Shown here: positions 4,755 to 64,000 of the stretch, piece after piece | How the letters are laid out: each line of letters starts with the position of its first letter | How positions within the stretch are numbered: the stretch's first letter is position 1 | Assembly: GCA_010909725.1 (NCBI GenBank) | Contig: JAACMV010000021.1 | Coordinates: 955,469 to 1,019,468 of the forward strand | Direction of reading: 5' to 3' | Length of the DNA: 64,000 nt | Source of the DNA: Picochlorum sp. 'celeri' | Taxonomy: Eukaryota; Chlorophyta; Trebouxiophyceae | Program-made: the position numbers and the translations under genes | Notes under the pieces: model-generated | What the model was told of the DNA's origin: nothing | Databases searched by the model: none | The model's input: only the letters and a program-made list of their open reading frames with translations

Positions 4755-6575
4755 ATGAGTGATTCTGATAGCATTACATTCGATTCCCTCGGGATCGATG
4801 CGAAGATTGTGAGGGCGTTGAATAAACGTCAATTTAGACATGCAACTCGAGTGCAGGCTGCATGCATCCCTAAAGCGTTAGAGGGGCATGATATTGTGGC
4901 ACGAGCTCGAACGGGGAGTGGGAAGACGTTGGCATACCTGGTGCCAGCGCTGCAGCGGTTGTTGGAGGTGGACAAGGGGAGGGTGGGGTGGCAGGCTCTC
5001 GTCCTGGTTCCTACCAAAGAGCTGTGTGAACAGGTGTGTCAGGAGGCCAAGTCATTGGCCCTTGCATGTTCAGGGTCTATTCAGGTGACGAGCTTGACTG
5101 GAGATGGGAGGAGTCTTCGCCAGGCGGCAGTTACCGCTGGTTCTGTTGTTGTGTCGACACCTGGTAGAGTGGCAGAGCTTATACGGAGCAAGGTTGTGCG
5201 TGGGGATATGCTCGGGTCCAATTTGACCTTTCTTGTGTTGGATGAAGCTGATCTCTTGTTGAGTTATGGATATGAGGAAGATATGGATGTGATTTCGCCA
5301 TGTATTCCTCGATCCTGCCAATGCATGCTGACGAGTGCCACCACATCAGAGGATGTGGAGAAGCTGACGAGATTGATTCTCCAAAATCCAGTATCACTGG
5401 ATCTATTGGATGTGACCGATCCAAATAAAAAAGTGTTAGAAGAAGGAAAGGATGATATTGATCACCGTAGAATAGATTTACCATCAGCATCGGGGAATCC
5501 AGGTTCCCTGACAGAGATGACGGAGCGGCTGCTGAGACTTCTGACGATTCTCAAGTATGGATTAGTGGAGAACAAAGTTTTAATCTTTGTGAATTCTCCA
5601 GATACGGGAATGAGGACGAGGCTGTTCTTGGATGCATTTGGAATACGCTGCTCTGAGATGCACTCAGAAATGCCTCTGAATACGAGAAACCATCTATTGC
5701 AACAATTTAATAGAGGGCTGTTCGATTATTTGATAGCTACAGATGATGTGCATGGAATGGACGATGCTTCAAAAGGCAAGAAGGGGAAGAAGAACAAGAA
5801 GGATGAGGAGTTTGGTGTGACACGTGGGATAGATTTTAAGGGAGTCAAAACTGTTATCAATCTGGAGCTTCCCTCAAGTATTGATGGATATACCCACCGC
5901 GTCGGTAGAACCGGGAGGGCGGGAGAGCATGGGACGGCCATCTCGATCGTGGGAAAGGGAGATGACTCCATCATAAAGGATGTTGTGGCTCGTTTGGAAA
6001 TCTCTGGCCAGTCCTTGTTGGAGTTTGATCGCATCACAGCGTCTGCAGTCGAAGGCCTCCGATATCGTGGAGAGGACGTGGCGAAGAGTATTACAAAATC
6101 AGTGATACGAGAAGCGCGAGCAAAGGATATTAAAGGAGAGTTGATGAACTCAAAACGCCTTGCCTCCTTCTTTGAGGAAAGACCATCTGATCTTCAGCTC
6201 CTTCGCCACGATAGGTCGGTGGCATCTACCACGGCAGGGGCTTCAGCCTCACATCTTAAACATGTACCAGCATATCTTCGCGACCCTTCACTCCAGGGGA
6301 AATCCTTTGTTGGCTCATCGGGTGTCGTTGGAGGCAATGGTTTTCTGGCACCACGAAAGAAGAGAAAGACTGACAAGATCGATCCAGTGAAGGGATTCAT
6401 GAGAGCACCAAAGCGTGGGGGTGATCGATTCGAAGAGCCTACAGAAATGGAGATGAGAGCCGAGAAAGCTGCTGAGAAGGAGCGCAAAAAGCTTAAAAAA
6501 GCTGGGAAATTGCCAGGAGAGCCATCATTCGTCCCAAAGAGGAATGTCCGGAGACACAAATCACGCAAACGTTGA
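4755..6575 (+). CDS. DBP9: DEAD-box RNA helicase, DBP9/DDX56 type
   Basis: A single 606-residue exon. Helicase motifs appear in order: Q-motif region RQFRHATRVQAACIP, motif I ARTGSGKT (residues 51-58), Ib STPGRV, II DEADLLL, III SATTSED, IV LIFVNSPD, V RGIDFKGV and VI HRVGRTGRAG. The continuation SYGYEEDM after DEAD and the basic C-terminal tail (KKLKKAGKLPGEP, RRHKSRKR) are typical of the nucleolar DBP9/DDX56 group, which acts in 60S ribosome assembly. A Lys-rich insert (GKKGKKNKKDEE) precedes motif V, as in this family. The 3' flank is very short: a TGTAA lies at 6602 and the next ATG at 6628. Confidence 0.94.
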   Translation: MSDSDSITFDSLGIDAKIVRALNKRQFRHATRVQAACIPKALEGHDIVARARTGSGKTLAYLVPALQRLLEVDKGRVGWQALVLVPTKELCEQVCQEAKSLALACSGSIQVTSLTGDGRSLRQAAVTAGSVVVSTPGRVAELIRSKVVRGDMLGSNLTFLVLDEADLLLSYGYEEDMDVISPCIPRSCQCMLTSATTSEDVEKLTRLILQNPVSLDLLDVTDPNKKVLEEGKDDIDHRRIDLPSASGNPGSLTEMTERLLRLLTILKYGLVENKVLIFVNSPDTGMRTRLFLDAFGIRCSEMHSEMPLNTRNHLLQQFNRGLFDYLIATDDVHGMDDASKGKKGKKNKKDEEFGVTRGIDFKGVKTVINLELPSSIDGYTHRVGRTGRAGEHGTAISIVGKGDDSIIKDVVARLEISGQSLLEFDRITASAVEGLRYRGEDVAKSITKSVIREARAKDIKGELMNSKRLASFFEERPSDLQLLRHDRSVASTTAGASASHLKHVPAYLRDPSLQGKSFVGSSGVVGGNGFLAPRKKRKTDKIDPVKGFMRAPKRGGDRFEEPTEMEMRAEKAAEKERKKLKKAGKLPGEPSFVPKRNVRRHKSRKR

Positions 6576-6601
6576 TAAATAAGAAATTTTATTTCTTCTC
6601 T

Positions 6602-6606
6602 TGTAA
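6602..6606 (+). terminator. TGTAA poly(A) signal (DBP9)
   Basis: TGTAA lies 27 nt after the DBP9 stop and only 22 nt before the next candidate ATG. Confidence 0.5.
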
Positions 6607-6627
6607 TACTGTATTAGTTGCGGAGTA

Positions 6628-7110
6628 ATGGGTAGATTTGGAGGTGGGGTTGGTCATGCCAATGCATGCTGCTGTCAACTGCGCTCATCTCGCGCCTTTG
6701 TTGTGCGACCATTATACGATAATATGCAACTCATATAACTGTCCATTAATTGCATTGCAGGTGGAACCAACAATAGCTCCTTTAATGGTAGGACGACCAA
6801 CTGGCAAAAGGTGAAAAGGATAAAGGCACGAGTGGCAAAGAAGAGATCCGGAGCGAAATCAAAGCATTTGGACACTGCTGTGGAAGGAGTGAGCGGCAAG
6901 AGGACTGGTAAATCCCAGAGGAAGTCCCAGAGGAAGGAAAGGCTTCGACAAAAGGAGCAACAGAATCTGGAGTCTGGGATGGATGTTGATGGTGAGAAGA
7001 AGCCTGCGAAGAACTTGGCAAAAGCATTGAAAAAGACTGGCAGTGGCAAGAAAATCGTTCGAAAGATGATGGGCAAGTCAGAGGGCGAGGTGGATGCAAT
7101 GACAGACTAG
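6628..7110 (+). CDS. Small Lys/Arg-rich protein, function unknown
   Basis: The main exon 6761-7110 follows a clear acceptor (TTGCATTGCAG) and encodes about 115 residues rich in Lys and Arg (VKRIKARVAKKRSGAKSK, SQRKSQRKERLRQKEQ), ending EGEVDAMTD. The acceptor phase requires one leading base, so exon 1 could be only ATGG (6628-6631, donor GTAGAT) or 6628-6652 (donor GTCATG); both are in phase and I cannot decide. The composition suggests a nuclear or nucleolar protein, but I do not recognise a family. Its stop codon ends 4 nt before the ATG of the TAD1 gene, so the two may share one transcript. Confidence 0.6.
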
Positions 7111-48839: not shown

Positions 48840-49526
48840 CTAGGTAACGATTCGAACCAATACTACTTCAAATATAAGTGGCTCGCTCTTATGATTCTCG
48901 AGCTGCCTTTTGGTTCCAAAAGTTGGCATCTGTGGCTCCACATCGCTTGCCTGCCCTGACAAGTAGCCAGCGCTGGGTGGAACAAGAATTCTACGTTTGC
49001 CGCCTGGCCTCATCCCTGAGAGGCCTTCCACGAGCCCTGGCAGCAAACTGCCATTGTTTAGTTTCCATCGGACCGGACCAGTCGGAATGTCTCGAGGCTG
49101 AAAGCTGACACCTTCCACAGTGGAGTAAATAAAGTACCCATTAGCTCGCCTTAAAACATAGTCGACCAGGACGTCGTCCCCATTGCGGGCTTCCGCGTAA
49201 TTGGCTGGACCATCAATTAGATCTTGTACCAATGCTCCAGATGCTGTCTTGCGGAATTTTGGAGCCGAAGGATCGATTGGGGCGGATAGTCCTGGACTCG
49301 ACCAGTCGCCTGAATCCCTGGCTCCCAAAGCCTCTCCACAGCCAAGCAGAGAGCCGGAAATCAGAGTCATACACATTAAATCCCTCCTTTTAATACATAA
49401 ATTTCTATCAATCGTAGCATCGCCCACTCCCGGTCGCACTTGAGCACATCTGTGCACAGACCGTCTCGTGGCGCAGCGTTCCGAAACTTTACGGGGCTGT
49501 TGCCCCCTAGAAAAGCATCCTTTCAT
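48840..49526 (-). CDS. Thylakoid-lumen FKBP-type peptidyl-prolyl isomerase
   Basis: A 228-residue single exon. The N-terminus is a bipartite plastid/lumen signal: an Arg-rich stroma part, then KRRDLMCMTLISGSLLGCGE ending ALGA. The FKBP domain includes VQDLIDGPANYAEARNGDDV, LVDYVLRRANGYFIYSTVEG, LPGLVEGLSGMRPGGKRRIL, VPPSAGYL and PLIFEVVLVRI. Lumenal FKBPs of the FKBP16 group assist photosystem assembly. Several active-site aromatic residues of canonical FKBP12 are not obvious, as is common in lumenal members. It is divergent from the PKS gene. Confidence 0.85.
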   Translation of the reverse strand: MKGCFSRGQQPRKVSERCATRRSVHRCAQVRPGVGDATIDRNLCIKRRDLMCMTLISGSLLGCGEALGARDSGDWSSPGLSAPIDPSAPKFRKTASGALVQDLIDGPANYAEARNGDDVLVDYVLRRANGYFIYSTVEGVSFQPRDIPTGPVRWKLNNGSLLPGLVEGLSGMRPGGKRRILVPPSAGYLSGQASDVEPQMPTFGTKRQLENHKSEPLIFEVVLVRIVT

Positions 49527-49928
49527 TCCTCAACCCGAAAGATAATCCATTCAGACTGCAATGGTAGTAACGGATGACGAAACGCTTATCGGACAGTGTG
49601 GGCCACACCTCTGGGCATGTACTGCGCCATTTCCATGACAGGTCAACCCTTTGTAAGGGTTGACTTTTTCTCAGGGATGGTCATCATCGCCCGATCATCG
49701 GGATTACCAAGACATCTATATCATGATACACTTGAATATTGTAGAAAGAGTTAAAGATATAGAGAGAGGGAGTGTGTGAATAGGTGGGACGTCTCCAGGT
49801 CCTTTGCCTGTACAGTTGACCACTGAAGGGCCCTTTCACGGAAGGGTATCCCTCAACATATGTGCGGATAGATATATATGAGAAAGATATTATACATATT
49901 TGGTTTGGTTTGAGAATCGCATTGCGTG
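49527..49928. other. Divergent promoter region, FKBP / PKS
   Basis: It contains a perfect hairpin (49642-49664) followed by a T-run, a GGGCCC-centred palindrome AAGGGCCCTT near 49827-49836, several GTTGAC/GTCAAC cores, and AT-rich GATATATATGAG at 49871-49882 about 50 nt before the PKS ATG. A 25-codon frame at 49561 has no support. Confidence 0.45.
49642..49664. repeat. Perfect 10-bp inverted repeat with 3-nt loop
   Basis: GTCAACCCTT, TGT, AAGGGTTGAC, followed on the + strand by TTTTTCTC. The stem is perfect and encloses TGTAA. It could be a protein-binding dyad, a small-RNA hairpin or a 3'-end element. Confidence 0.6.
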
Positions 49929-52900
49929 ATGGAAACCTCGGAAGGTAGCATGAGCAGGACTTTCCTGTGTCGTGTGTGCTCCAAGCCATTGCAAGAGGAG
50001 GTCGATCTACTAGTGAAAACGGTACAGTCCAGGTACGTTCCATGATTTTTCATGGTATATGTTGCCAAAAATATGGATATGGAATACTTCAAAGCACAAT
50101 GCGCAGGGCCATGACGGAGGAGCTTGTCGTTTTGCATCACAGTGAGAGCCAGATGCTTTTACTGATCGACATGCTCAGGGGCGTTTTGAAGGAGACTAAA
50201 GTCTCTGGAATATTGATTGATTCTCATGGCGTAGAAGATCTCATGATTGCTCTTCGTGATGAAGAAAGAGGGGGAGGGAGGATCCTCAAAGACCTGTTGG
50301 ATACAAAGCCCCTGATGGTTGATGACCAGGTACGTGTACAACTGAAGGGTTCCCTGATCACTGCGATTGATATTTCTATAATATTCACTCAAACTCGCAT
50401 ACGCAGGCATGTACTTGTGAATTCGACCCAAGCATTGTCCAGGGAAGTGGGTATTGTAGCATGACCAAGTCTGAAATTGAAGATATTGTTGTTGGAAGTA
50501 CTCGAGAATATTTGGTAGAGAATGGGTATCAATTACCTCAACACAAAATGAGAGATATCAGCTTTTTTAAAATTGGCCTAGACAGTCTTGATCTAATGAT
50601 GCTCGCAGAAAGGATCTCGGAAAGGATCAAGGTGGAGATGGAGCTCACAGCTCTGATAGATTACCCTACAGTTGACGCATTGTGCACATATATCAACAAT
50701 CTTTGTGACCCTGATGCCTCGAATGCTACTCGTGAAAGTATGTGTTATACCTGATCGCATTTGGTCCGATTCATCCAATTTATGTGTATACATGCTTTGC
50801 AGGATCACTGCTTCCTCACATTCCCAGTCATGTTGTCCTTGGGGTCACAGGCATCAATTCAAACCTCCCGACGCGTTGTGAAGGACACATAAGCAGCTTT
50901 TCCGAGGATGGTATCACTCAAATTCCCATGAAGAGATGGGATATGGACCGCCATGGCTATACTGAAAGCCCCACTGCGAATGCACAGGTTTTGACAGTTC
51001 GCTTTGGAGCCTTTTTGGAGAATATAGAATACTTTGATCCTACCATATGGGATATTCCTGTGATTGAGTGTGAATATATGGACCCACAACAGCGCCTTTT
51101 GCTTGAAGCAGTCTCAGGATTGGCATTCGCTCTGGGAGCGGCTGTGGTCAAGTGTGGTATTTTCGTGGGAGCTTCGACCTGCGATTATCAATCCCTAATC
51201 TCGAAGCGGACTGAAGCATATAAGACGACTACTTCTTTTTGTGTGACTGCTACGGGGCTAGGGGTCATCCCTGGCAGGATAGCGTTCCATTTGGGCATGC
51301 AAGGACCTGCTATTGCCACAGACACTGCATGCAGTTCCAGCTTGGTTTCACTGAGTATTGCTCACCAAATGACCCAGCAAGAGGTCATTAAGTCTTCTTT
51401 CTCATGCGGATCTAGCCTTCTGATTGATCAGGGGCAATTTCAGGCGTTTGAGTCGGCAAACATGTTGGCAAAAGATGGTAGGAGCAAGGCCCTTGATGCC
51501 TCTGCTGACGGTTTTGCGCGAGGGGAAGCCATCGTGGCTCTGCGGTTGGATGAAATTTCTGAAGACAGTCGTGATGTTTTATGCGTCCTGCAAAGTATAT
51601 ATGTGAACCAGGATGGAAAGAGTAGCCGTTTGACAGCGCCGAATGGGCCTGCACAGACAGCGCTCATAACAGAGACATTGAGGCGTTCCGCCTGCGAGCC
51701 CTCTGATGTGGCCAAGCTCATGCTGCATGGGACAGGTACCCCATTAGGAGATCCTATAGAGCTTGGAGCTTTACTTAAATCATATCAGAGCTCAAACCAG
51801 GATACATGTGACAGCCAACGGAATTTGTGCGCCGTCAAAACATCGGTTGGGCACAGTGAAGCAGCAGCTGGCATTGTTTCCTTGTCTGGGGCCATTGCCA
51901 TGAAGTCAATGCAGATTGTTCCTGTTCTTCACTTGCGTCATTTGAATGAGCACTTGGAGCGGCTCGTGGAATCCTGTAGAGACAAAGGGTCCTGTCTGGG
52001 CATTAAGAGATGTTCTGCACCCAGCAATGGAGATAGGACTGACAGAGATTTCATTGGAGTCTCGAGTTTTGCTTCCCAAGGTACAAACTGCCATGCTATT
52101 TTGTCCCTCTGCCATCACCAATCGGTGCAAACACAGTCGGAATCAGTAACGAGAGACTTGTGGAGGAAGAAATGTATGTGGATTTTTGCTCTGCCAGAGA
52201 CTCGAATAAAACTCGTTTGTTCCAGGGACACCTGCATTTTGTTTGAAGTGCCTGTTCATTTTCCCTCGCCTGACAGCTTGCAAGAGTGCTTCTTAGAGGT
52301 ATGTGATGTGCTGTCTCTTGCTTTCCAGAGATTCTGAAGAAAAAAATTAAATGTATAGTCGATGCATGTGTGTTGTTCAGGTGGCTTTGGACGCCGTGTC
52401 AGTCCTCCGAAGTGACAAGCAACTAAAGGAAGGCGGCCACGGACTTCAGGGCATAGTTTACAGGAAATTCGTCAAAGAGAAATTGAGCTTTTATATTATG
52501 AAGGTCCAAGTAGAAGTTGACGTAGTGGCGGCGTCTGTGGACGGCCTACGATGTTTCTTTGCAGAGGCTCATGCCTGCTCTCTACTTGATCTTTCGCAAT
52601 GTACACCTTGCACCATTTGCCCACTGATGCCCACTGATGCTGTGAAGCCGGTTGCATCTCCTCCCATCTTTGCCAACAAAAAGCCGCCAACTGATTTTTG
52701 TCACACCCACGCGTTGGCACTACTAAATTGGATCCAGCTTGCTGATGATGGCACATTTGGTCGAAGCCCTCCGAGGCTACAATCACTTGCACTTTACACC
52801 TCTTGCGAGAGTTCTGGCAGGGATGCTTATCAAATCATAAATGAAGAGATTTGTTTATCTGCAAAAAGAACATTAAATGGATATTGTATGGGTTTCAAAA

Positions 52901-55900
52901 GAGATGTGCCCACCAATGCTGAAATTTATTATACCAGCAATGTCCTTGTGGATGAATGTGAAGGCGGGAGACACGAGACAGTTCCCGAGAAATACTACCC
53001 TCTAAGCCTCCATAATGCGAATTATTTCGTGCCGCTGTCTATTTATGAGTGCCGGGACAGTTTCTTGGTCAGTCTTGGCTTTCTGCAGCAGTCCATGTCC
53101 TATGAAAAGTCCACTGGGAGAATAGGAAATCCACTGATATGCGCGAATGACTTCTCACTGGTTTGGACCCGGCAAGATACTACACTTGCCAAATTCTGCT
53201 ATGCTGTCAGTCGTTCTTTTGAAAGAGAGACTTTCAATGGAAAGTTTGCTTTTGCGGGGAGCAAGGGGAGGACAAGAGGTGTTGATAATGAAATCTCTCT
53301 CAGGAGCACTCAGCCTGAAGAGGACAATAATGCTAGGCATTCACGCTCTAACAGAAAACTAGTTCATTGCATCTCACAGATGGATCATCATTATGGATAT
53401 TTGATGCATCAAAGAAAGACGATGCCCTCTCCTTGGATGCTTTCTGGCGGCACCGGTGGGTTGGGCTGGCTTCTAGCAACATTATGTGCTGTGGACCACT
53501 CCCATGTCGTCTGCATGAGTAAAAGTGGTGTTCTAAAACAAGCAAGAATATCGGATATTGATTCGATCAGAAGTGATTCGGCAATTTCCATCGAGAGGTT
53601 CGTGAATGTGAAGAGCTGAGTGAAATTGATTTTTTTGCTGTCGTTTCCTGAAGATGCATCGTGCTGTGAATGCAGGGGGGAAGTGAGTTCCAACGAGGAC
53701 ATTGGTCAGATTGTCAACGATGCCACCTATAAGATGAGGACTTGTCGCTTCGTTCATGCAGGAGGAATCTTGCATGACTCGAGCCATAGAAATGTGTCCC
53801 TCGAAACATTTCGGAAAATGTTTGCCCCAAAGGTGTCCGGGATCCATTGCATAACAAAGAGCTTGTTGATACATTCCAATCTCCAAAATCTGATAGCCTT
53901 CAGCTCTATCGCTGCATTGCTACACCCTTCTGGCAGTTCAATATATGGAGGTATCAATACAATAATGGATACCCTAACATCGCGGTTGCCCGCGACAGGT
54001 ATGCCCGCTGTTTCTATCCAGTGGGGTCCCTGGAGCTCGGTAGGCATGGTTGCAAAATCGTCCAAAGTCAGCAGCGCAATGAAAGCATTCGGAATTTCAA
54101 TGCTGTCGACAGAACAAGGACTATGGGCATTTTCTACTTTACTGTCAATGAAGTCGAGTCCTTCACTGATCGCAGTTGTGCCCTTCGATGAAAGGCAGTC
54201 AAGTTGTGGTGCTACGCTGCAAGAGGTGATTCTCAGCAGAGCCTCCTCCAGGAGGCACCATCAGATGAGTGGACCCCAGATCAGCAATGCTGATGCCAAC
54301 TCCCTTGCGCCCAGAGTCCAATCGCTATTGTCCGCGATAATTGGTAACAGAATAGACAGCCAAATGGAATCTCTCATTAAGTACGGCGCAGATTCTCTCT
54401 GTGCCATCGAGATTCAGCAACAGCTGTCTGAAGAATTCCGCATAGACCTGCCCCCCTCATTCCTATACGACTTTCCCACAGTTCACTCTATGAGTACGGC
54501 AATCCAGGCAATGTTATCAGACAAAGAAGCTTATTGCTTGACAGCAGAGTTGAAAAGTGACTTAGACGGGCAGAAACATCAAGGTCCTCTTGGCATCAAA
54601 GAACTTGCCTCTCGTGAGCCTGATGGACTTTCGGGAGCCCGCTTTGATGTTGAATGCACAAAAAGTGCAAACTTCTTTCGATGGGATGTAGATGAACTTG
54701 CAGACAATGTTCCAGAAGCGAGGTTTGGAAAATTCCTGTCACATATTGACATATTTGATTCGGGGGTTTTTGGAATATCGACTTTGGAAGCAAACCTTAT
54801 GGACCCACAGCAGAGAATTCTTCTCGAGGTGCGTTGATCATAGTATCCAGCAATGTACATATATTTTGTTGAATTAAACTATACACACACGCCTCCAGGA
54901 TTCCTTAGCGCTGCGCTGTAGTTGTACCGAGGCACAAGATCAGGCAGTTGGAGTTGTCGTCGGTCTGTCGTTCTGGGACTACTCAAATCTGTCTGAAAGG
55001 CATACTCAGTCTCTTGGAGATGCTCTGAAACTGACAGGAAGAAATTTCAGCGTATCCTCAGGCAGGATAAGTTTCGTTCACGGTTACTCCGGTCCTTCCA
55101 TGGCAGTTGATACGGCTTGCTCATCGAGCATTGTAGCAGTCAGCATTGCCTCACACCTGTTAACGAGGGAGCCATTACGGTCCGTGATCGTTGGTTCGGC
55201 TCTTATTTCACTTTCTATTGACGTTATGAGATTTCTCGCTTCGGCGTCCATGATTTCTGCTGACGGGAGATGCCGAACCCTTGATGAGGGAGCTGCTGGA
55301 TACGGCAGAGGAGAAGCCAGCGTGTGCATGCTCATTACGCGCTCTCCAGATGGTCCAACTGCCATTTGTGCAGTGACTGTAAATCAGGATGGGCACTCTG
55401 CTTCGCTGACTGCGCCCCATGGGCCTTCCCAAATTCAAGTCATTCGGCAAGCGTGTGCAAATGCTGAAATGTCCCCGGTAGATGTGGAGGTGCATGAACT
55501 CCACGGCACAGGCACCCCGTTAGGGGATCCTATAGAGCTTCTCGGTGTTTCTAAAGCTCAGGAAGAAGCATCAAATGGTATGGCATCGTTGTTGTCCATC
55601 TCTACTTCCAAGACAGCCCATGGACACTCGGAACCAGCAGCAGGGTGCATAGGAATTCATTGGATTCTGAGGCAGCTTGAAAAGAAGATTATGGCCCCAA
55701 ACATCCATTTAATAGAGGTTAGTAAGCATATAGCATCTGCGCTCCTTGCAAGTAAGAGGCCCATGTATCCTGCGAGGGAATGCCGCCCTATCGGATTACA
55801 GGAACAAAGAGCCTTCGCTTCTTTGAGCTCGTTCGCATTTCAAGGGACAAATGCACACGCAATCTTACAGTACGATACTTCGAGGGATACCCAGTTTCGG

Positions 55901-58900
55901 GTAGATGCATTGAGATGTATGGCAGCGTATCACGGACATGTCTCTTGGTACTGTTCAACCGTACATGCTCTGATGCACCCAATCAGCCCTACCTTCCCAG
56001 ACCAAGACATCTCTTGGAGCGTTGGGTACAAGCAGAACTTTATTGCTCGGATGAAAGATCATAAAGTATTTTCAGCGAGCCTATTACCAGGAATGTGCGT
56101 TTTCGCAATCATGTCTGATGCGGCACAGTTGTGCCTTGCTGGAAGGGCTGATTACCAACACCTTCTCAGGAGTGCAAATATTGGGACGCCTGTGCATCTT
56201 GACGACGCACATAGCCTTGTGGCAAAAGTGTCACTTTCTACAGGCAAGGCCACGTTATCTGTGGATAACGGAAACTGCAGCAGGCCCAACGCAATGTGTG
56301 GGATATGGTGTCTTTCTAGCCAGGGGCAAGGGCCCGTCAGCAAGGACCCACGCCCACTGGTGCTGAACACTCATGCGAAACCACATACCAGTGCGCCTTC
56401 GATTGGCTTTCTTGCGCATGCTGTCGATCAAAAGGTCGAGATGGCAAATGTGCCTTCTCCTGAATTGCTTGATGGCTCAACTCATCTTGCCGCCTTCTCT
56501 GAAACTCTGAAAGGGAGGGCTGTCTCTGTACCCGTCTCGTCTGAATGCTTGAGCATCGCATTTACTAGCCTCCATACTTCTAAAATAGTCCGATTTCAGG
56601 GCTTTGCAGTTTGCGATGATGCACGTGCAAATGAGAGGCTGAGAGACTACTTTGTCCATCTGCCAGGGACAAAATACACGTATATCAAGTCGCTGTACTC
56701 GGCATCGATCAAACGAGAGAGATCTTTGGAGGCTAACTTTTATTTTTTAAATGTAGATCATATCAATAATACTAGAAAAGCTCGTGAACTGTCTGATATC
56801 AGGCACCGCCAACGAGCAGTACACAAGTTGCTAACATTGCAGGGGAGCATCACTTTTTCCTCTGCTAGGAGCCATAAAAATCCTCTTTTGGAGTACTCGA
56901 CGCTAATAGAATTTGTACGTACCCAGCATGGGAGATCATTCAGTTATCTGGCGCCCAAACTGTTGGGCGTGAGTTCGAGCTCAAGAAATAGCGGACAGCT
57001 TCAAGCGGCGAACACAGAAATAGGTTGTAAAGCAGACATCATAGAGCTCGATACCAGCGCCTGTAGACTGCACACTGTCGACTCCTGGAAAGAGGTATCG
57101 ATTCCCTATAGTCCGAATGAAAATACGTTCGGGCCATCGAAAAACTACAGGAGCCTGGCAGCGGGTATGGCTGCGGTTTCAGGGGGAACTGACGGCATAG
57201 GCCTCCTCCTGGGACAGTGGCTCGCATCAGGCGAGGTCGAAACGCAATCATCCATCGCACTAGTTGGACGAACCCCATTTCTCCCCACCTCGTTTCCTAA
57301 ATCCTTTTCGCGCAACATTCCGGTGACGATAACGCAGCACGACTGCGCAACTGAGACGGGGACCCTTGGCATGGAAAAACTGTGCAGGGCTTGCACTGTT
57401 GGCTTTCGTGCAAACATGTTTCATGGAGCTGGCGTCATCCTGGATCAAACAATTACTTCCACGACTTTTGGATCTTCATTAAAAGTCTTTGCACCAAAAT
57501 ATTGGGGCATCAAACGGACAGCAGCACGCGCAGTGTCCTGTTTGGCTGTAGGAAGCATCGTCTCTTTGTCTTCCATGTCAATCACGATAGGAAATCCAGG
57601 ACAGACTAATTACATCGCTGCAAATTCAGCAATGGAAACTGTTTCACAGGATATTGCATACACAGGCATAGATTCTCGAATCATTCGATATGGCCCGTGG
57701 AAAAGTGTAGGCATGCTTGCAAAAAAGGAGAGTATCCTAAAGAGCTTGAGCAAACTTGGATTACTACCTCTCTCTCCTTCGCAAGGTTTGGCTGCGACAG
57801 AGACATTTATCCGATCTTCGCATTTATTTTCTACACTAGCTCATATTAAGTGGGAGACAAGCAATCGTGGTGATCCATTCGACAATGAAAGGTGCAACTT
57901 GGATTCTGAGGGCTGCCAGCATTCTGAAACCATCGATCAGTTGTCAGATACTCGGGATTCGTACGATCATGTTCGATCAATCATTGTTGACATTCTCGCG
58001 GATGTTTTGGACGAGGTACCCTCCACTGATGATGATCCTTTCTTTGAGGTACGTAACTTGCTTGTATTTCACCAGACAAATGATATGAGGAGACATGCAC
58101 CTTGTCCTGCAGATTGGTATTGATTCAATATCATCGATAGAAATTCATAGAAGATTGAATAAGAAGCTACAGAAAGATTTACCACCCACCATCCTATTCG
58201 ATTATCCAACGGTGTCAAGGCTCGCAAACGCTCTCTGTGGGCATCTGGAGATCCGTGTATCACATGTCCTTCATGTGGATAATGGGGAAGAGAAGGACCG
58301 CAAGGTATCCATTTGCGGCACATCTCAAATCCTTCCAAAGATAGGCCTGAGCTTGATTGAGGAATTTGTTAATTTGGTGCCTTCATCCACGGATCTTCAT
58401 AGTGTGCTCCCAAAGGACAGGTGGGATTTTGAGCGACACTTTTCACTGTCAACGGGTGGCACGACAGCGTACACGGGTATTGGTGCATTCGTCCCCAATA
58501 TATGGGCATTTGACCAGGACTTTTATGGATTAAAAGCTAATGAAGCCAGACAAACAGATCCTCAACTGAGATCTCTGCTGCATACTACAGCAAATGCTAT
58601 TCACTATTCTAGAAAAACGGATCGCCTCCGAGATACAACTTATGGAGTCTTTGTTGGGTGCATGTTCTACGACTATTTGAGGATTATCCAAGGTGCTGCC
58701 TCGGGAATCGATGCAGCAGCTATCATTGGTAACGGGGCGCCCTACTTGTGTGGGAGGATTGCCTATACATTCGACATGCAAGGCCCTTGTGCAGGCATCG
58801 ATACGGCCTGTTCAAGCAGCCTGGTCGCTGTCGACAGCGCGTATCACGCAATATTGAACAGGCAAGTACGCCATTCTGTGGCTTGCGGAACAAATGTTAT

Positions 58901-61900
58901 CATCTGTCCAGGCACAACAGCGATGGTCTGTCAACTCGGAGCCCTGTCCAGATATGGACGATGCCTGAGCCTCGATGCAACTGCAGATGGATATGGGCGC
59001 GGAGAGGGGATAGTGTCTCTTAACTTGTCGGCAGACCATAATGAGAACACTCTGGCTTCCATCAGAGCAACTGCAGTCAACCAAGATGGGAGGAGTATTT
59101 CAATGACTGCCCCAAACGGACCAAGCCAAGAGGCTCTTCTCCGCTCATGCTTATCCAAAGGGGGGCTCGCGAGTGATGACCTTGATCAGGTCGTAATTCA
59201 CGGAACTGGCACCTTGTTGGGAGATCCAATTGAGTCTCAGGCACTGCATAATCTTTTGCAGGGACCAAGTGTCTCCCCGACCCACATAGCAGCTGTCAAG
59301 GCGCTTCTGGGGCATTGCGAAGGTGCTGCAGGGACAGTTGGTGTTCTTCTTTCTGTGTATACTGCATGCAGAAAGTCAACCGCATCAATTCAAACGCTGC
59401 GCTCGATGAACCCGCTAGTTCAGAACACCCTGAAGAGTGGGAAACTTGTACCAAGTCGCGAGCACGCGCCAGAACGTGCGACAATAGCCGGCGAGACCGT
59501 CTCTGGAAGCAGCTCATTTGGGATGAGTGGTACGAATGCGCATGCAATACTTTCAGGCACGCAGGTCTTTACGCCGGGTCGGCAACACGAGACGCTGTTA
59601 AAGGATCGCATGTATTCTTTTAGACTTTTTGTTTCGGAGTCCCTCGAGTTCCTCGGACATGAGGTGCAACATGCATTGGATCTGTTTGAGTACAACGCAT
59701 CAAGCTCTACTGTGCAAGTCATGATGAATCATCAGATCACAGGTAAAACACTGCTTTTGTACCACCGCTCGATGGTATTTTTCTTTCCATTCCGCTCAAT
59801 ATTTAGTTGCAAAACATTTTGGTTGTGCAGGCCGTAGTATAATCCCAGCATCTTTACAGATATATATTTGCTTTCAAACTTTGCTGCAGACAACGACCAC
59901 AAAATGCGAGTGGGGTATGAATACTTTTATCTTCTATAGGCCTTGTCTGATGAGCAATAATCTTCGATTGCTCGTACGTCACGATTTTGCTGAGGGCTCT
60001 CTTGCGATTCTGGACCGTGCAACCAGTGGTTTGGAATTCTCGTCGTCCCGGGTAGAATCTTTGTGCTGCCGCACGGGATGGACATCCGGGGCATCCCGCT
60101 CGAGCCTCCAAAGCCACGTGATGCAAAACTTTTTCTCTGCAAAAATTACGGAGAAATGTTTTGCGCTGATCTCGGCGGGTGGGCGGCACGTTGCTCCCAT
60201 TCTTGATGCCTCGTTCCACCTAGGCGCAATTCATCAGACTGATTGCAGAATACCAGTATCATGCGGATCAATCCATTTCGGTGCCGATCCATCATTCAAT
60301 ATGACTAAAAGTAACTTTTTTTCGAGTGCTGAAAGCTCAAAAGAGTACCGAGACCAGAGCATGTACCATGGCCTTGGAAGGAGGGAGCATTTCAAATCCA
60401 GGCAAATGAAAGTAAAACGCACACAGGGTGATCTGATGCGCCAAGAATCTATCTGGCAATCCACTCCTGGTTTCAAAGTTTTGCAACCAGGAGCCAGAAT
60501 AAAGCAGACAATCGCGCCATTCTATCAGGCGAGCGATCCCGAACCACTTCGATTGGTTTCAACAAGTTTGGAGATGCTGTATGGAGGCATCGCAACAAAG
60601 GATGATGATTCCGTCTTTCTCTCCTATCAATATCCCTCCAATGATAGACAGTTTATAAATCAATATCCACTGGGAGCTTGCTTACAACGAGTTTACAATT
60701 CCGAAGCTAACCAAGGGCTGGTGCAGCCCTTGAGTGGAGAGATGACCTCAAGACAATTCGTGCCGTTTGACAATGTCCCTGTCCAGTCATCGCTGCAATA
60801 CCCCATACCAAATCAGACTGCTAAGACTCCCGGGATACAAGGCGGAACCATTTTATCCTCATTAGGAGGTATTGGCATTCTTCTAGCTCAATATTTTGCC
60901 ACAATGGGCTCTGACATTCGTTCTTGCTCCCGACACGGCGTGACTGAATCGTTACCATTGAGCAAAGGAATAGAAATCACTAAAGCAGATGTATCGCATG
61001 CTGAGGATGTCCAGTTTCTGCTGTGCGATGCCACGCTCGGGTATGGGATCATGCACACCTCAGGATGTCTGCGTGATGGATTGATTCGCAGTATGGACTT
61101 GGAGGGCCTCCGGGCGACTTTGGCCGCAAAAAGGAACTCATTCGATCTCATCAACCATTATTCACATGGTTCCCCCCGGATGTACGTGTGCGCCTTTTCT
61201 AGCATTGCCAGTTCTTTTGGGTCCATCGGTCAAGCCGCCTACGCAGCTGCAAACCAGGCCTTGGACGCGGCGGTATGCCAGTGCTCTGACAGCGGTTTGC
61301 CATCTCACAGTATTCAGTGGGGTTTGTGGGATGGCATTGGCATGGCGAGAGGGCTTCATACAGCCGCGTTGAAACGCCTGTCCTCAATTGGAGTCTCAAG
61401 CATCACTCCTGTCGAGGGCTTGGAGCGGCTCGAAGCGTTACTCAGTCTCCAAAAGAGGCACCATATACCCATCGCGATGATTTGCAAGATTCACACCGAT
61501 CTACTTGAGAAATATCTGGCGTCGCAGCCCCAATTAAGGCATCTACTGAGAGGCATCAAATCCCATCAAGACTTTGGTGGCCGGGAGATCTCGAGACCGA
61601 ATGAGGTTGACAGGGTAAATCAGTACCCGGAGTACAACATTCCTCGGAAACTTAAGCTATTACTGTCCCAACACGTTGACACCGAAGAGGATGACTTGGA
61701 CTTGAGTGCTCCGGTTCTTCAATTGGGCTTTGATTCTGTCTCTTCTGTGGAGCTCTTGCAATCCCTGGAAAAACAATTCCATGTGCATTTTCCTGCTACC
61801 TTTATGTATGACTATGTTTACTTCGACGATATGGTGGCCTATATCAAAGAAAAATTAGAAATAGATGGGCTCGAGGAGCACACAGCAGTCAGAATCACTC

Positions 61901-64000
61901 CAGTTGGACAACTCACCAAAAGGATCCAAATAGTGTGTACAGCCTCACTATTTGCAGGCGCCGATGATCTTCAAGGGGAGAGACTATCATTTGGACACGA
62001 CTGTGCTGGTCCCACGCTGCGAAACTCGCCGGATGTACACTCTGAAGTTTTTGCATCGACTCTATCCAAGAGAGACATCTTTGCGTTTGACAGCGATCTT
62101 TTCAAACTGCCGAAGACGACAGTAGTAGGTCTTGATCCGAATATACGCTGGATGCTAACGTTGACGAAAGAATTGTTTGGACGAAAGGAGGCAGTGCAGC
62201 GCAATTGCGGAGTGTACTTGGGATGGATGTGGTCGCATGAAAATTTCCACCGCTTGCAGCGAGATGGATATGCTTCGCAATATCTGGCATCTTCAGTAAC
62301 AGGAAACTCTGCGGCATTTGCAGTCGGTTATACCTCCTATCTGTTCGAATTAAATGGGCCCAGCATCCCGATTGATACCGCCTGTTCAAGCAGTTTGGTG
62401 GCGTTGCACACTGCCAATCAGGGCATGCAATCATCTGACTGTGTTGATGCAGTCATTTTGGGAGTCAACAGTTTCTTGGAAGACCAGACATGGACTAAAA
62501 TTGAAGCTCTCAAGGCGCTGAGTCCCGATGGCAGATGCAAGACTTTTGATGCAGCAGCAGATGGGTATGGTCGTGGAGAGGCCTTCACGTCCTTGCACCT
62601 GAGTTCCTCCGATCAAAATAGCACTGCTAATCTGGTCGTTGGAACAGCAATTAACACAGTGGGAATAAGATCATCGCTAACAGCGCCGCATGGTCCTTCT
62701 CAGGTGGATGTCATCCGGCAGGCCCAAGAGCGATGCGGCAATGTCCCCGTTTCGGGGCTCTTCTTGCACGGAACAGGTACGAGTCTTGGGGATCCAATTG
62801 AGATACGAGCGCTGCAGCAAGCGCTGAAAGAATCTGGGGAATGCGGACCTGTTGCGTTGCAATCACCAAAGTCGTCCGTTGGCCACACAGAAGGCTCGGC
62901 TGGCTTGACAAATATTTTAGCAGCACTCGCTGCGATGCAGTCGCAGCAACTGATGCCCATCCATAATTTACGCTCGCTAAATCCTATGATAGCTCTCATC
63001 CCTGGTACAGCATCTGTGACCCGTACATTACGCCCCCATTCATGCGAGACACCTGCATATTCTGGTACGTGATACAGCAACCCCGACCCTCTAGTTTATA
63101 TCAACTTACACCGATGATCCCTTTTTGATCAAATAATACAGGGTCTAACTCATTTGGAATGACGGGAGTGAACTCACATGCAATTATGCTGCATTCAACC
63201 GGGGCGGCAGATCATCCATCCTCAAGTGATGTGGAAATGGGTTGGATGTCACCAGTCGGTTGGACCCAGCACGTCCTCCGAACTGGCGAGAGCAGCAATG
63301 AATTCCACGTGCTACCCCATATATCAATGAAAGCTTCATTTCTAAGAGATCACTGGGTGAATAAGCAGCAGCTTCTTCCTGGAACATTATTCATTGAGCT
63401 CGCCAAGGAAGCATTGGCCTTGCTCAGTCAAAATGGCCTTCAGCCGCTGTCCAACATCTCGTGGAATGTCGGTTGCCTATTTGATGATCTTCCTGGTATT
63501 AAATTGACTATCGAAGATAAGGGAAGGATCAATGTGAGTAAGAGAGGCGTGAGGTGCGCATGCACCATGGACTGTGTTCAAACCCTGGCACAGAGTGGGG
63601 GCATCAGTACGAAGGCCCCATCACCGCCATGGCCTGTACCATTCTCGGATACCACATCCGATACAGCCTCGTACATCTCTAATTCTTCGTCTGAAACTTC
63701 GTATCGCGGCCATCCACTATGGATCGCCTTGCCCACGGACGCAATGTTGCATTTGGGAGCAATTGACAGCAAGGCGATGCATATTCCAGTAGCCATGAAA
63801 TTTTTCCTCGACAGACAAGTCTTCAATCCACCTGCCTGTATTTCTACCTTACCTTCAAATACAGAGAATCGGAAGTCGACAGGGGCACTATCACTGGGCG
63901 TCACTGCAAATACAATCAGCATTGAGAGTCATTCCCTCGTGGGAAAAGCAGTGATTCAGGGAGCCAACAATGCTGGACGCCAACCCCCTGAGAAAATGTA
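49929..64000 (+). CDS. Modular type I polyketide synthase, AT-less, 3' end outside window
   Basis: Ten exons read by phase: 49929-50032, 50107-50329, 50407-50737, 50803-52298, 52381-53597, 53676-54828, 54899-58048, 58113-59742, 59831-63064 and 63142-64000; introns are 64-88 nt. The product exceeds 4,465 residues and is still open at the window end. Order: unidentified N-terminus, ACP (Ser169); KS1 (Cys396, His528, His570), degenerate DH1, KR1 (Gly1074, Tyr1214), ACP1 (Ser1364); KS2 (Cys1582), DH2 (His1896, Asp2033), KR2 (Tyr2413), ACP2 (Ser2563); KS3 (Cys2791), DH3 (His3098, Asp3227), KR3 (Tyr3572), ACP3 (Ser3737); KS4 (Cys3953), DH4 (His4250, Asp4379). No acyltransferase GHSxG, methyltransferase or enoylreductase is seen. 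It should build a reduced, partly unsaturated polyketide chain, with malonyl units delivered by a separate AT. Confidence 0.9.
50470..50715 (+). other. PKS domain: N-terminal ACP
   Basis: EIEDIVVGSTREYLVENGYQ, then FFKIGLDSLDLMMLAERISE and LIDYPTVDAL. The phosphopantetheine Ser is in GLDSLD (residue 169). It precedes the first KS, so it probably carries the starter unit. Confidence 0.85.
50850..52110 (+). other. PKS domain: KS1
   Basis: EYMDPQQRLLLEAV, nucleophile in DTACSSSLVS, LHGTGTPLGDPIE, KTSVGHSEAAAG and GVSSFASQGTNCHAIL. The Cys-His-His triad is complete, so it is a condensing domain, not a decarboxylating or transacylating KS0. Confidence 0.9.
52150..53350 (+). other. PKS domain: DH1, probably inactive
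   Basis: This linker of about 400 residues has DH length and a recognisable proline-helix element (SPDSLQECFLEVALDAVSVL). The residue nine positions before that Pro is Phe, where DH2-DH4 have His. A TDFCHTHALALL stretch could be the remains of the Asp motif. Confidence 0.55.
53430..54200 (+). other. PKS domain: KR1
   Basis: NADPH loop LSGGTGGLGWLL, FVHAGGIL, Lys in FAPKVSG, Ser in FSSIAALL, Tyr and Asn in IYGGIN, then VSIQWGPWSSVGMV. Catalytic residues are present. An intron (53598-53675) falls inside the domain. Confidence 0.85.
54300..54520 (+). other. PKS domain: ACP1
   Basis: LIKYGADSLCAIEIQQQLSE, with Ser1364 in GADSL, and LPPSFLYDFPTVHSM. Confidence 0.88.
54640..55885 (+). other. PKS domain: KS2
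   Basis: LMDPQQRILLE is split by an intron (54829-54898) directly after the motif. Then come VDTACSSSIVAVSI, LHGTGTPLGDPIE, SKTAHGHSEPAAG and SSFAFQGTNAHAIL. All catalytic residues are present. Confidence 0.9.
56020..56700 (+). other. PKS domain: DH2
   Basis: The hot-dog His motif is MKDHKVFSASLLPGMCVFAI (His1896, Pro nine residues later). The second half-domain is SPELLDGSTHLAAFSETL (Asp2033). Both catalytic residues are kept. Confidence 0.8.
57150..57850 (+). other. PKS domain: KR2
   Basis: The loop VSGGTDGIGLLLGQWLASGE has Asp where KR1 has Gly. Others are NMFHGAGVILDQT, VSLSSMSITIGNPGQTNYIA (Ser, Tyr2413) and RYGPWKSVGML. Confidence 0.83.
57940..58260 (+). other. PKS domain: ACP2 (split by intron)
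   Basis: VRSIIVDILADVLDEVPSTD runs up to FFE at an intron (58049-58112), then IGIDSISSIEIHRRLNKKLQ. The pantetheine Ser2563 is the fifth codon of exon 8. Confidence 0.87.
58430..59565 (+). other. PKS domain: KS3
   Basis: IDTACSSSLVAVDS (Cys2791), IHGTGTLLGDPIE, KALLGHCEGAAGTVG and SSFGMSGTNAHAIL. The normally invariant DPQQR motif reads TDPQLRSLL. The triad is complete. Confidence 0.88.
59690..60540 (+). other. PKS domain: DH3
   Basis: MMNHQITG, intron 59743-59830, then RSIIPASLQIYICF gives His3098 with Pro nine residues later. PILDASFHLGAIHQTDCRIP supplies Asp3227. The domain is recognisable only after splicing. Confidence 0.75.
60820..61510 (+). other. PKS domain: KR3
   Basis: GGTILSSLGGIGILLAQYFA has an expanded glycine loop. 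Then MHTSGCLRDG, FSSIASSFGSIGQAAYAAAN (Ser, Tyr3572) and SIQWGLWDGIGMA. Confidence 0.82.
61640..61870 (+). other. PKS domain: ACP3
   Basis: LQLGFDSVSSVELLQSLEKQ (Ser3737) and FPATFMYDYVYFDDM. Confidence 0.88.
62030..63180 (+). other. PKS domain: KS4
   Basis: IDTACSSSLVALHTANQGMQ (Cys3953), LHGTGTSLGDPIEIRALQQA, KSSVGHTEGSAGL and NSFGMTGVNSHAI after an intron (63065-63141). DPQQR is replaced by LDPNIRWML. Confidence 0.88.
63290..64000 (+). other. PKS domain: DH4, module continues beyond window
   Basis: FLRDHWVNKQQLLPGTLFIE (His4250) and ALPTDAMLHLGAIDSKAMHI (Asp4379). Both catalytic residues are present. A KR and ACP are expected just past the window edge. Confidence 0.78.

Follow-up and report, generated by a model that had tools for sequence, protein, structure and literature searches.

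A six-module polyketide synthase with no acyltransferase or thioesterase found and a NUP98-type C-terminal domain in the green alga Picochlorum sp. 'celeri'

We analysed a window of 64,000 nucleotides of Picochlorum sp. 'celeri' (C21:955469-1019468, where C21 is contig JAACMV010000021.1; assembly of 27.4 Mb in 30 contigs). Positions 50461-64000 of the window are the first part of a giant type I polyketide synthase (PKS) gene, the remainder of which ends about 10 kb beyond the window. The gene encodes six modules in which we found neither an acyltransferase (AT) nor a thioesterase, and it ends in a domain resembling the autopeptidase domain (APD) of the nucleoporin NUP98. Multimodular PKSs without ATs are already known in green algae (Shelest et al., 2015; PMC4661987, in the passages drawn on here); the unusual feature is the NUP98 domain at the thioesterase position. 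Synthases with this ending are called APD-PKSs below.

Domain order and the NUP98-type tail

The PKS gene has 14 exons, running from 50461 to 74492 in continued window coordinates (end at C21:1029960) with the stop codon at 74493, and encodes 7,670 aa in C21. The predicted protein holds six ketosynthases (KS), six ketoreductases (KR), seven acyl carrier proteins (ACP), one enoyl reductase (ER) and dehydratase (DH) motifs in five modules, in the order ACP - KS1-KR-ACP - KS2-(DH)-KR-ACP - KS3-DH-KR-ACP - KS4-DH-ER-KR-ACP - KS5-(DH)-KR-ACP - KS6-DH-KR-ACP - APD. Cys-His-His is kept in all six KSs and the serine in all seven ACPs. Modules 3 and 6 carry the canonical DH motif HxxxGxxxxP, and modules 2, 4 and 5 carry altered forms of it; a motif scan of the spliced protein found none in module 1, and Pfam support for DH is limited to modules 4 and 6. 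The features are as follows.

50461-50737, plus strand: exon 1, N-terminal ACP (GLDSL; PP-binding, 44.9 bits); ATG 50461 is the probable true protein start
50904-51935, plus strand: KS1, with DTACS, HGTGT and GH intact (PF00109, 142.9 bits; PF02801, 91.4 bits; motifs)
53443-54036, plus strand: KR1, containing intron 53598-53675 (PF08659, 70.8 bits for the second part; GTGGLG at 53443)
54319-54504, plus strand: ACP1 (PF00550, 33.8 bits)
54679-55711, plus strand: KS2, containing intron 54829-54898 (PF00109/PF02801, motifs)
56060-56092, plus strand: DH2-like motif HKVFSASLLPG (HxxxSxxxxP); motif only, no Pfam DH at E 0.01
57170-57703, plus strand: KR2 (PF08659, 58.3 bits)
58043-58235, plus strand: ACP2, containing intron 58049-58112 (PF00550, 38.0 bits for the second part; GIDSI motif)
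58299-59360, plus strand: KS3 (PF00109, 169.3 bits; PF02801, 90.3 bits)
59730-59850, plus strand: DH3 motif HQITGRSIIPA (HxxxGxxxxP), spanning intron 59743-59830; motif only
60862-61332, plus strand: KR3 (PF08659, 79.7 bits)
61651-61845, plus strand: ACP3 (PF00550, 34.9 bits)
62044-62970, plus strand: KS4 (PF00109, 118.8 bits; PF02801, 85.7 bits)
63142-64000, plus strand: exon 8, reaching the window end; the gene continues past it
63318-63488, plus strand: N-terminal part of DH4, motif HWVNKQQLLP (HxxxKxxxxP) (PKS_DH_N, 31.7 bits)
Past the window, same gene: ER4-KR4-ACP4-KS5-DH5-KR5-ACP5-KS6-DH6-KR6-ACP6-APD
74091-74486 (C21:1029559-1029954): C-terminal APD-like domain

An earlier note on this window had read four KSs, three KRs and four ACPs in series. 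All are present, each KS with Cys-His-His and the first ACP being the N-terminal one, and the observation is confirmed with two details corrected. Its four DH-like domains are three motif-bearing regions (56060, 59730, 63351), of which Pfam backs only 63318-63488; and its start at 49929 with more than 4,400 residues becomes ATG 50461 with about 4,340 residues in the window. It did not see the NUP98 domain because that domain is located beyond the window.

The last 140 residues of the PKS match the NUP98 autopeptidase family (PF04096, 75 bits) in both haplotypes in a profile search of the genome; by sequence, they also match PDB entries for the Nup145/NUP98 APD. A predicted model of the APD of a relative, P0122, also matches the fold (pLDDT by tens, 51-78). 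On C8/C17, the genome also encodes NUP98-NUP96 in its canonical form, HFS site included, and the APD of that protein is 28% identical to that of the PKS. The PKS domain is thus like the NUP98/Nup145N APD (peptidase family S59) in profile and fold, but lacks the HF/S site (slash, cleavage point) and a downstream partner, and is fused to an ACP.

This fusion is conserved. A single intronless frame (442 codons in C21, 441 in C1) holds the C-terminal half of KR6, ACP6 and the APD; used as a query against 8,000 candidates, it gave five matches at E 0.001, each with ACP and PF04096 (P0122, 78% identical; P0123-P0126, 37-41%). A search for giant proteins gave 337 matches among 765 candidates, and among the best 120 of these at least seven carry PF04096 (P0127-P0130, P0132, P0133 and P0184), with neither PF00698 (AT) nor PF00975 (thioesterase) listed in any of the seven. 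P0127-P0129 have six KSs and look full-length (7,814, 7,934 and 7,863 aa), P0130, P0132 and P0133 have five and seem cut at the N-terminus, and P0131 seems to be a C-terminally cut member whose five KSs pair with KS1-KS5. Identity between the PKS and P0127-P0133 is 37-42% over 5,270-6,945 aligned residues. The relatives ending in an APD therefore comprise at least five ACP-APD frames and six long proteins. Our literature searches, which covered open-licence PMC papers, found no description of a PKS-NUP98 fusion among the papers listed, some of which concern rice blast or other fungi by title, and as far as they reach, this APD-terminated, thioesterase-free subclass is undescribed there.

P0184, a eukprot protein of 4,289 aa with an identifier in the style of choanoflagellate entries, has four KSs, no AT found and a C-terminal APD at 29.9 bits against a cut-off of 28.4; the APD profile built in this analysis did not report it. 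Its KSs differ in ancestry from those of the APD-PKSs. If this weak APD is true, the PKS-APD combination would have arisen twice.

The cleavage motif itself is lost. The HF/S of NUP98 is replaced by CF-TIN-stop in this PKS and by CF-NIG in P0122, and the chain ends at the Phe in P0123-P0126 and P0133, one residue on in P0127-P0130 and P0132, and two on in P0184. The profile and fold of an S59 domain are therefore present without a self-cleavage site (HF/S or HF/T and a following chain). With this motif lost and the chains stopping about the cleavage point, self-cleavage seems unlikely, and we read the APD as a binding domain, resembling the mature, already-cut C-terminus of NUP98. Passages of PMC5653651 describe binding of the Nup145N APD to the Nup82 beta-propeller, and the PDB holds APD complexes 5cww and 7mni (by entry title). 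The Picochlorum genome contains a NUP88 gene. A trypanosome orthologue has no cleavage residues (PMC4758718, in part), so loss of catalysis has precedent in the NUP98 family. Taken together, these points make tethering or docking our first choice for the role of the domain.

The gene structure was predicted with a simple model of codons and splice sites and then adjusted manually; its introns are GT-AG and 64-91 bases long. The start at ATG 50461 is supported by the N-terminal ACP that also opens P0127-P0129, and intron 59743-59830 by the DH3 motif that its removal completes. A model starting at 50111, which left an intron inside ACP4, was dropped, and another model had an extra first intron judged spurious. 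The upstream open reading frame 49949-50464 matched no Pfam family and was excluded. Matches in the assembly are paired between partner contigs (C21/C1, C3/C23, C4/C30, C7/C24, C8/C17), and we therefore took it as phased diploid. The two copies of the PKS locus are 99.4% identical across 29 kb and differ by 55 synonymous and 53 non-synonymous changes over 7,670 codons; at a pN/pS of 0.30, the gene looks constrained. A homopolymer run near 69045 (continued coordinate) is one base longer or shorter in C21 than in C1 and shifts the PKS frame, reflecting either an error of sequencing or a true difference between the alleles. The C1 frame is open for 961 codons across this region, and an intron predicted there in C21 (68881-68971) is probably not real. 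An FKBP-type peptidyl-prolyl isomerase gene adjoins the PKS (48843-49529, minus strand).

Acyltransferase and thioesterase candidates

No ACYLTRANSFERASE was found in the PKS gene, and Pfam Acyl_transf_1 was absent from its frames. We also searched 27 proteins with two AT profiles, one built from ankyrin-bearing ATs and the other from 16 ATs of bacterial PKSs. Nothing appeared at i-E < 1e-5, neither in the spliced PKS (including the part beyond the window), nor in seven APD-PKSs, nor in a further nine PKSs of algal type. As a positive control, the ankyrin-AT profile matched 4/4 bacterial cis-AT PKSs (16 domains), and six bacterial-type PKSs without a listed PF00698 were AT-negative. An AT concealed in the PKS linkers is ruled out by the Pfam and profile searches, and no AT domain was found at the genome's other PKS loci.

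Across the genome, PF00698 matched at two places in each haplotype. One, on C3/C23, encodes an ankyrin-AT fusion; the other, on C7/C24, is a FabD-like gene with two exons. Both proteins carry GLSLG and GAFH motifs. The GHSxG criterion used by the earlier note was therefore too weak, but the profile searches uphold its claim that the synthase has no AT block. The ankyrin-AT gene is located as follows.

C3:1172749-1174254, minus strand: ankyrin repeats and an AT with GLSxG in one protein

With no AT found in the PKS and no more than two AT loci detected in each haplotype, loading of the PKS ACPs in trans by a separate AT is a strong inference. The PKS has several KS-ACP modules without an AT, and a discrete AT is found elsewhere in the genome, as in a trans-AT type I PKS. 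The ankyrin-AT is most likely the enzyme involved. Judged by eye from 23 N-termini, its N-terminal stretch (MPRDMTATGRYPP... in many relatives) is conserved but does not resemble a transit peptide. In green algae, a malonyltransferase of the cytosol would have few conceivable clients besides a type I PKS. Among the best 120 of 7,080 matches to the ankyrin-AT, relatives combining ankyrin and AT occur in Chlorella, Auxenochlorella, Micractinium, Myrmecia, Chlamydomonas, Pycnococcus and others, with only the AT domain listed for the Coccomyxa relative; going by JGI identifiers, others are presumably from Tetraselmis, Chlorokybus and Mesostigma. The Chlamydomonas counterpart is CHLRE_02g088250 (P0115), and our literature search found no paper on Cre02.g088250. 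In Chlamydomonas, PKS1 reportedly takes part in forming the zygospore wall (Heimerl et al., 2018, as cited in PMC12633428). The fusion is thus a candidate general trans-AT of green algae. The closest named relative among these matches is from JGI Picsp_1 (P0006), at 86% identity, while the APD-PKS of Picsp_1 (P0133) is only about 37% identical to ours; either the PKS is diverging at a much higher rate, or the comparison involves a paralogue. For phosphopantetheinyl transferases, the genome search gave a single partial PF01648 locus in each haplotype.

No thioesterase was found in the APD-PKS, PF00975 being unmatched at the locus on both C21 and C1. PF00109 matched 79 times across both haplotypes, with split KSs counted more than once, and the matches cluster at four PKS loci (35 matches on C21:1006372-1026423, C4:316971-361477, C3:962685-977200 and C8:147059-176206). 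Each of the other three loci has PF00975 matches, on C4 and C3 in a frame equal in length to the KS frame and on C8, 3 kb beyond the final KS match, in a frame of 535 codons. Stand-alone thioesterase-like loci number three per haplotype (C4:120877, C16:66436, C6:175128 and their partners). At C4:312657-342428, a reported open frame 10,443 codons long carries KS and thioesterase matches over 30 kb; the matching frames on C30 are of 3,086 and 2,993 codons and shorter.

Ketosynthase phylogeny and known systems

For the KS tree (quick search with SH-aLRT, no bootstrap), 123 of 147 KSs found were kept, 24 bacterial-type rows being dropped so as to leave three per protein and KS pieces below 300 residues omitted. 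FabF sequences yielded no KS that passed the filter, and the tree therefore has no outgroup. KS1 to KS6 each group with the same-position KS of the APD-PKS relatives (99-100% SH-aLRT). The 89 algal-type rows (this gene, the genome's other PKSs and relatives) are split at 98% from 34 bacterial-type and P0184 rows, and the 18 rows from six AT-less bacterial-type PKSs (three named Streptomyces, three presumed bacterial) form one side of a branch at 95%. The PKS therefore shares AT-less modules, and by inference malonyl loading in trans, with bacterial trans-AT PKSs, but its KSs lie outside the bacterial AT-less group and with those of green-algal PKSs. It is not part of the bacterial trans-AT lineage, and acquisition of a bacterial trans-AT PKS by horizontal transfer, for which the AT-less modules could speak, is rejected by the separate branches of the tree; the introns of the gene also argue against it, and we regard it as scarcely credible.

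The PKS most resembles the chlorophyte trans-AT PKSs described in passages of PMC4661987, which are also giant and multimodular (KS/DH/KR/ER/ACP), have no AT, are assumed to use a free-standing one and fall into algal KS groups. According to these passages, nearly every one of some 30 non-iterative algal PKSs depends on an AT acting in trans, and trans-AT multimodular PKSs predominate in chlorophytes; the word 'ankyrin' is absent from the main text. The thioesterase that is common in, though not strictly defining of, this family was not found in the APD-PKS. Relatives P0135, P0137, P0139, P0140, P0142, P0144, P0145 and P0204 have one, and some relatives have a ligase domain, whereas the APD-PKS has an ACP at its start and an APD at its end. 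The same survey lists Bathycoccus without a type I PKS; P0134 (Bathycoccus prasinos) is a multi-KS PKS with a ligase domain.

The ankyrin-AT, in turn, is like the trans-ATs of dinoflagellates in its features (ankyrin upstream of the AT, GLSxG, xAFH, and AT-less modular PKSs alongside). In passages of PMC7159223, ankyrin-bearing trans-ATs occur beside AT-less PKSs, most with GLSLG and assigned to the cytoplasm; PMC6361889 is a further source, also used in part. Unlike in dinoflagellates, there is one such gene per haplotype here, conserved in the green lineage.

Proposed mechanism and alternatives

We consider it probable, though well short of certain, that this is a six-module, cytosolic trans-AT PKS with ankyrin-AT loading and an APD serving as a fixed binding module. 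The synthase would act colinearly: the N-terminal ACP would take the starter, and a separate AT, most likely the ankyrin-AT, would place malonyl units on each module ACP. Six condensations would follow, accompanied by ketoreduction, by dehydration in some cases and by a single enoyl reduction. In the place of a thioesterase, the APD would either tether the synthase (NUP88 and the nuclear pore being the known type of partner) or dock a release enzyme. A bolder version, in which a lineage of green picoalgae has brought the PKS under nuclear-pore control, its tail anchoring it to NUP88 or a NUP88-like dock in place of a thioesterase while the cytosolic ankyrin-AT loads it, seems to us rather doubtful.

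Several points weigh against the proposed mechanism. Dedication of the ankyrin-AT to the PKS is unproven because this type of protein is also found as P0118 and P0119 (early-branching streptophyte identifiers) and in various algae, and the FabD-like AT could load the PKS ACPs as well. Chain release may simply be carried out by a stand-alone thioesterase in trans. The C21 gene model is uncertain at the homopolymer run. Finally, passages of PMC10794256 report clusters of modular PKSs from two further strains of Picochlorum, detected by a rule that requires an AT.

The FabD-like protein, a malonyltransferase of the plastid/mitochondrial type, might itself serve the synthase, leaving the ankyrin-AT with another job. 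Besides the ankyrin-AT, it is the sole AT locus that the genome search detected; it has both motifs too, and FabD can load PKS ACPs in some bacterial systems. However, a FabD of plastid fatty acid synthesis would need moving to the cytosol, the ankyrin-AT has no obvious transit peptide, and ankyrin-bearing trans-ATs have the dinoflagellate parallel (PMC7159223, in part); we consider this alternative unlikely but worth keeping in mind. The earlier note had proposed a stand-alone AT, possibly of this type or a dedicated protein. A stand-alone AT is indeed likeliest, given that no AT was found at the PKS loci, with the ankyrin-AT likelier than the FabD-like one. The note's interpretation is partly supported: a eukaryotic trans-AT assembly line is supported but not a first, as chlorophyte cases were in print in 2015 (PMC4661987, as excerpted).

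Could the APD still be catalytic, removing itself or a tail, or have turned into a chain-release domain? It occupies the usual thioesterase position after the last ACP, and a Thr follows the Phe here; the use of a T994A mutant of the fungal Nup145N APD (5hb6, by title) suggests that a Thr nucleophile is possible. Yet the HF/S of the genome's own NUP98 reads CF/T here and CF/N in P0122, and with five relatives ending at the Phe and five others one residue on, the cleavage site is not kept, making a catalytic APD improbable. That the APD instead belongs to another gene next door, or that the join arose in assembly or annotation, is very improbable: the join is known from genomic DNA, but the frame across KR6, ACP6 and the APD is uninterrupted in both haplotypes, and P0122-P0126 and P0127-P0129 join the same domains. 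The objection that the open frames are separate genes, which the earlier note had raised against itself, is unlikely for the same reasons.

The APD-PKSs constitute a definite and conserved class among algal PKSs: they have no known release domain, and a nuclear-pore fold stands where one would be expected. Chain release, docking and the subcellular location of algal megasynthases thereby become directly testable. The ankyrin-AT also provides one named candidate gene for the missing AT of green-algal trans-AT PKSs, and its Chlamydomonas counterpart allows genetic testing.
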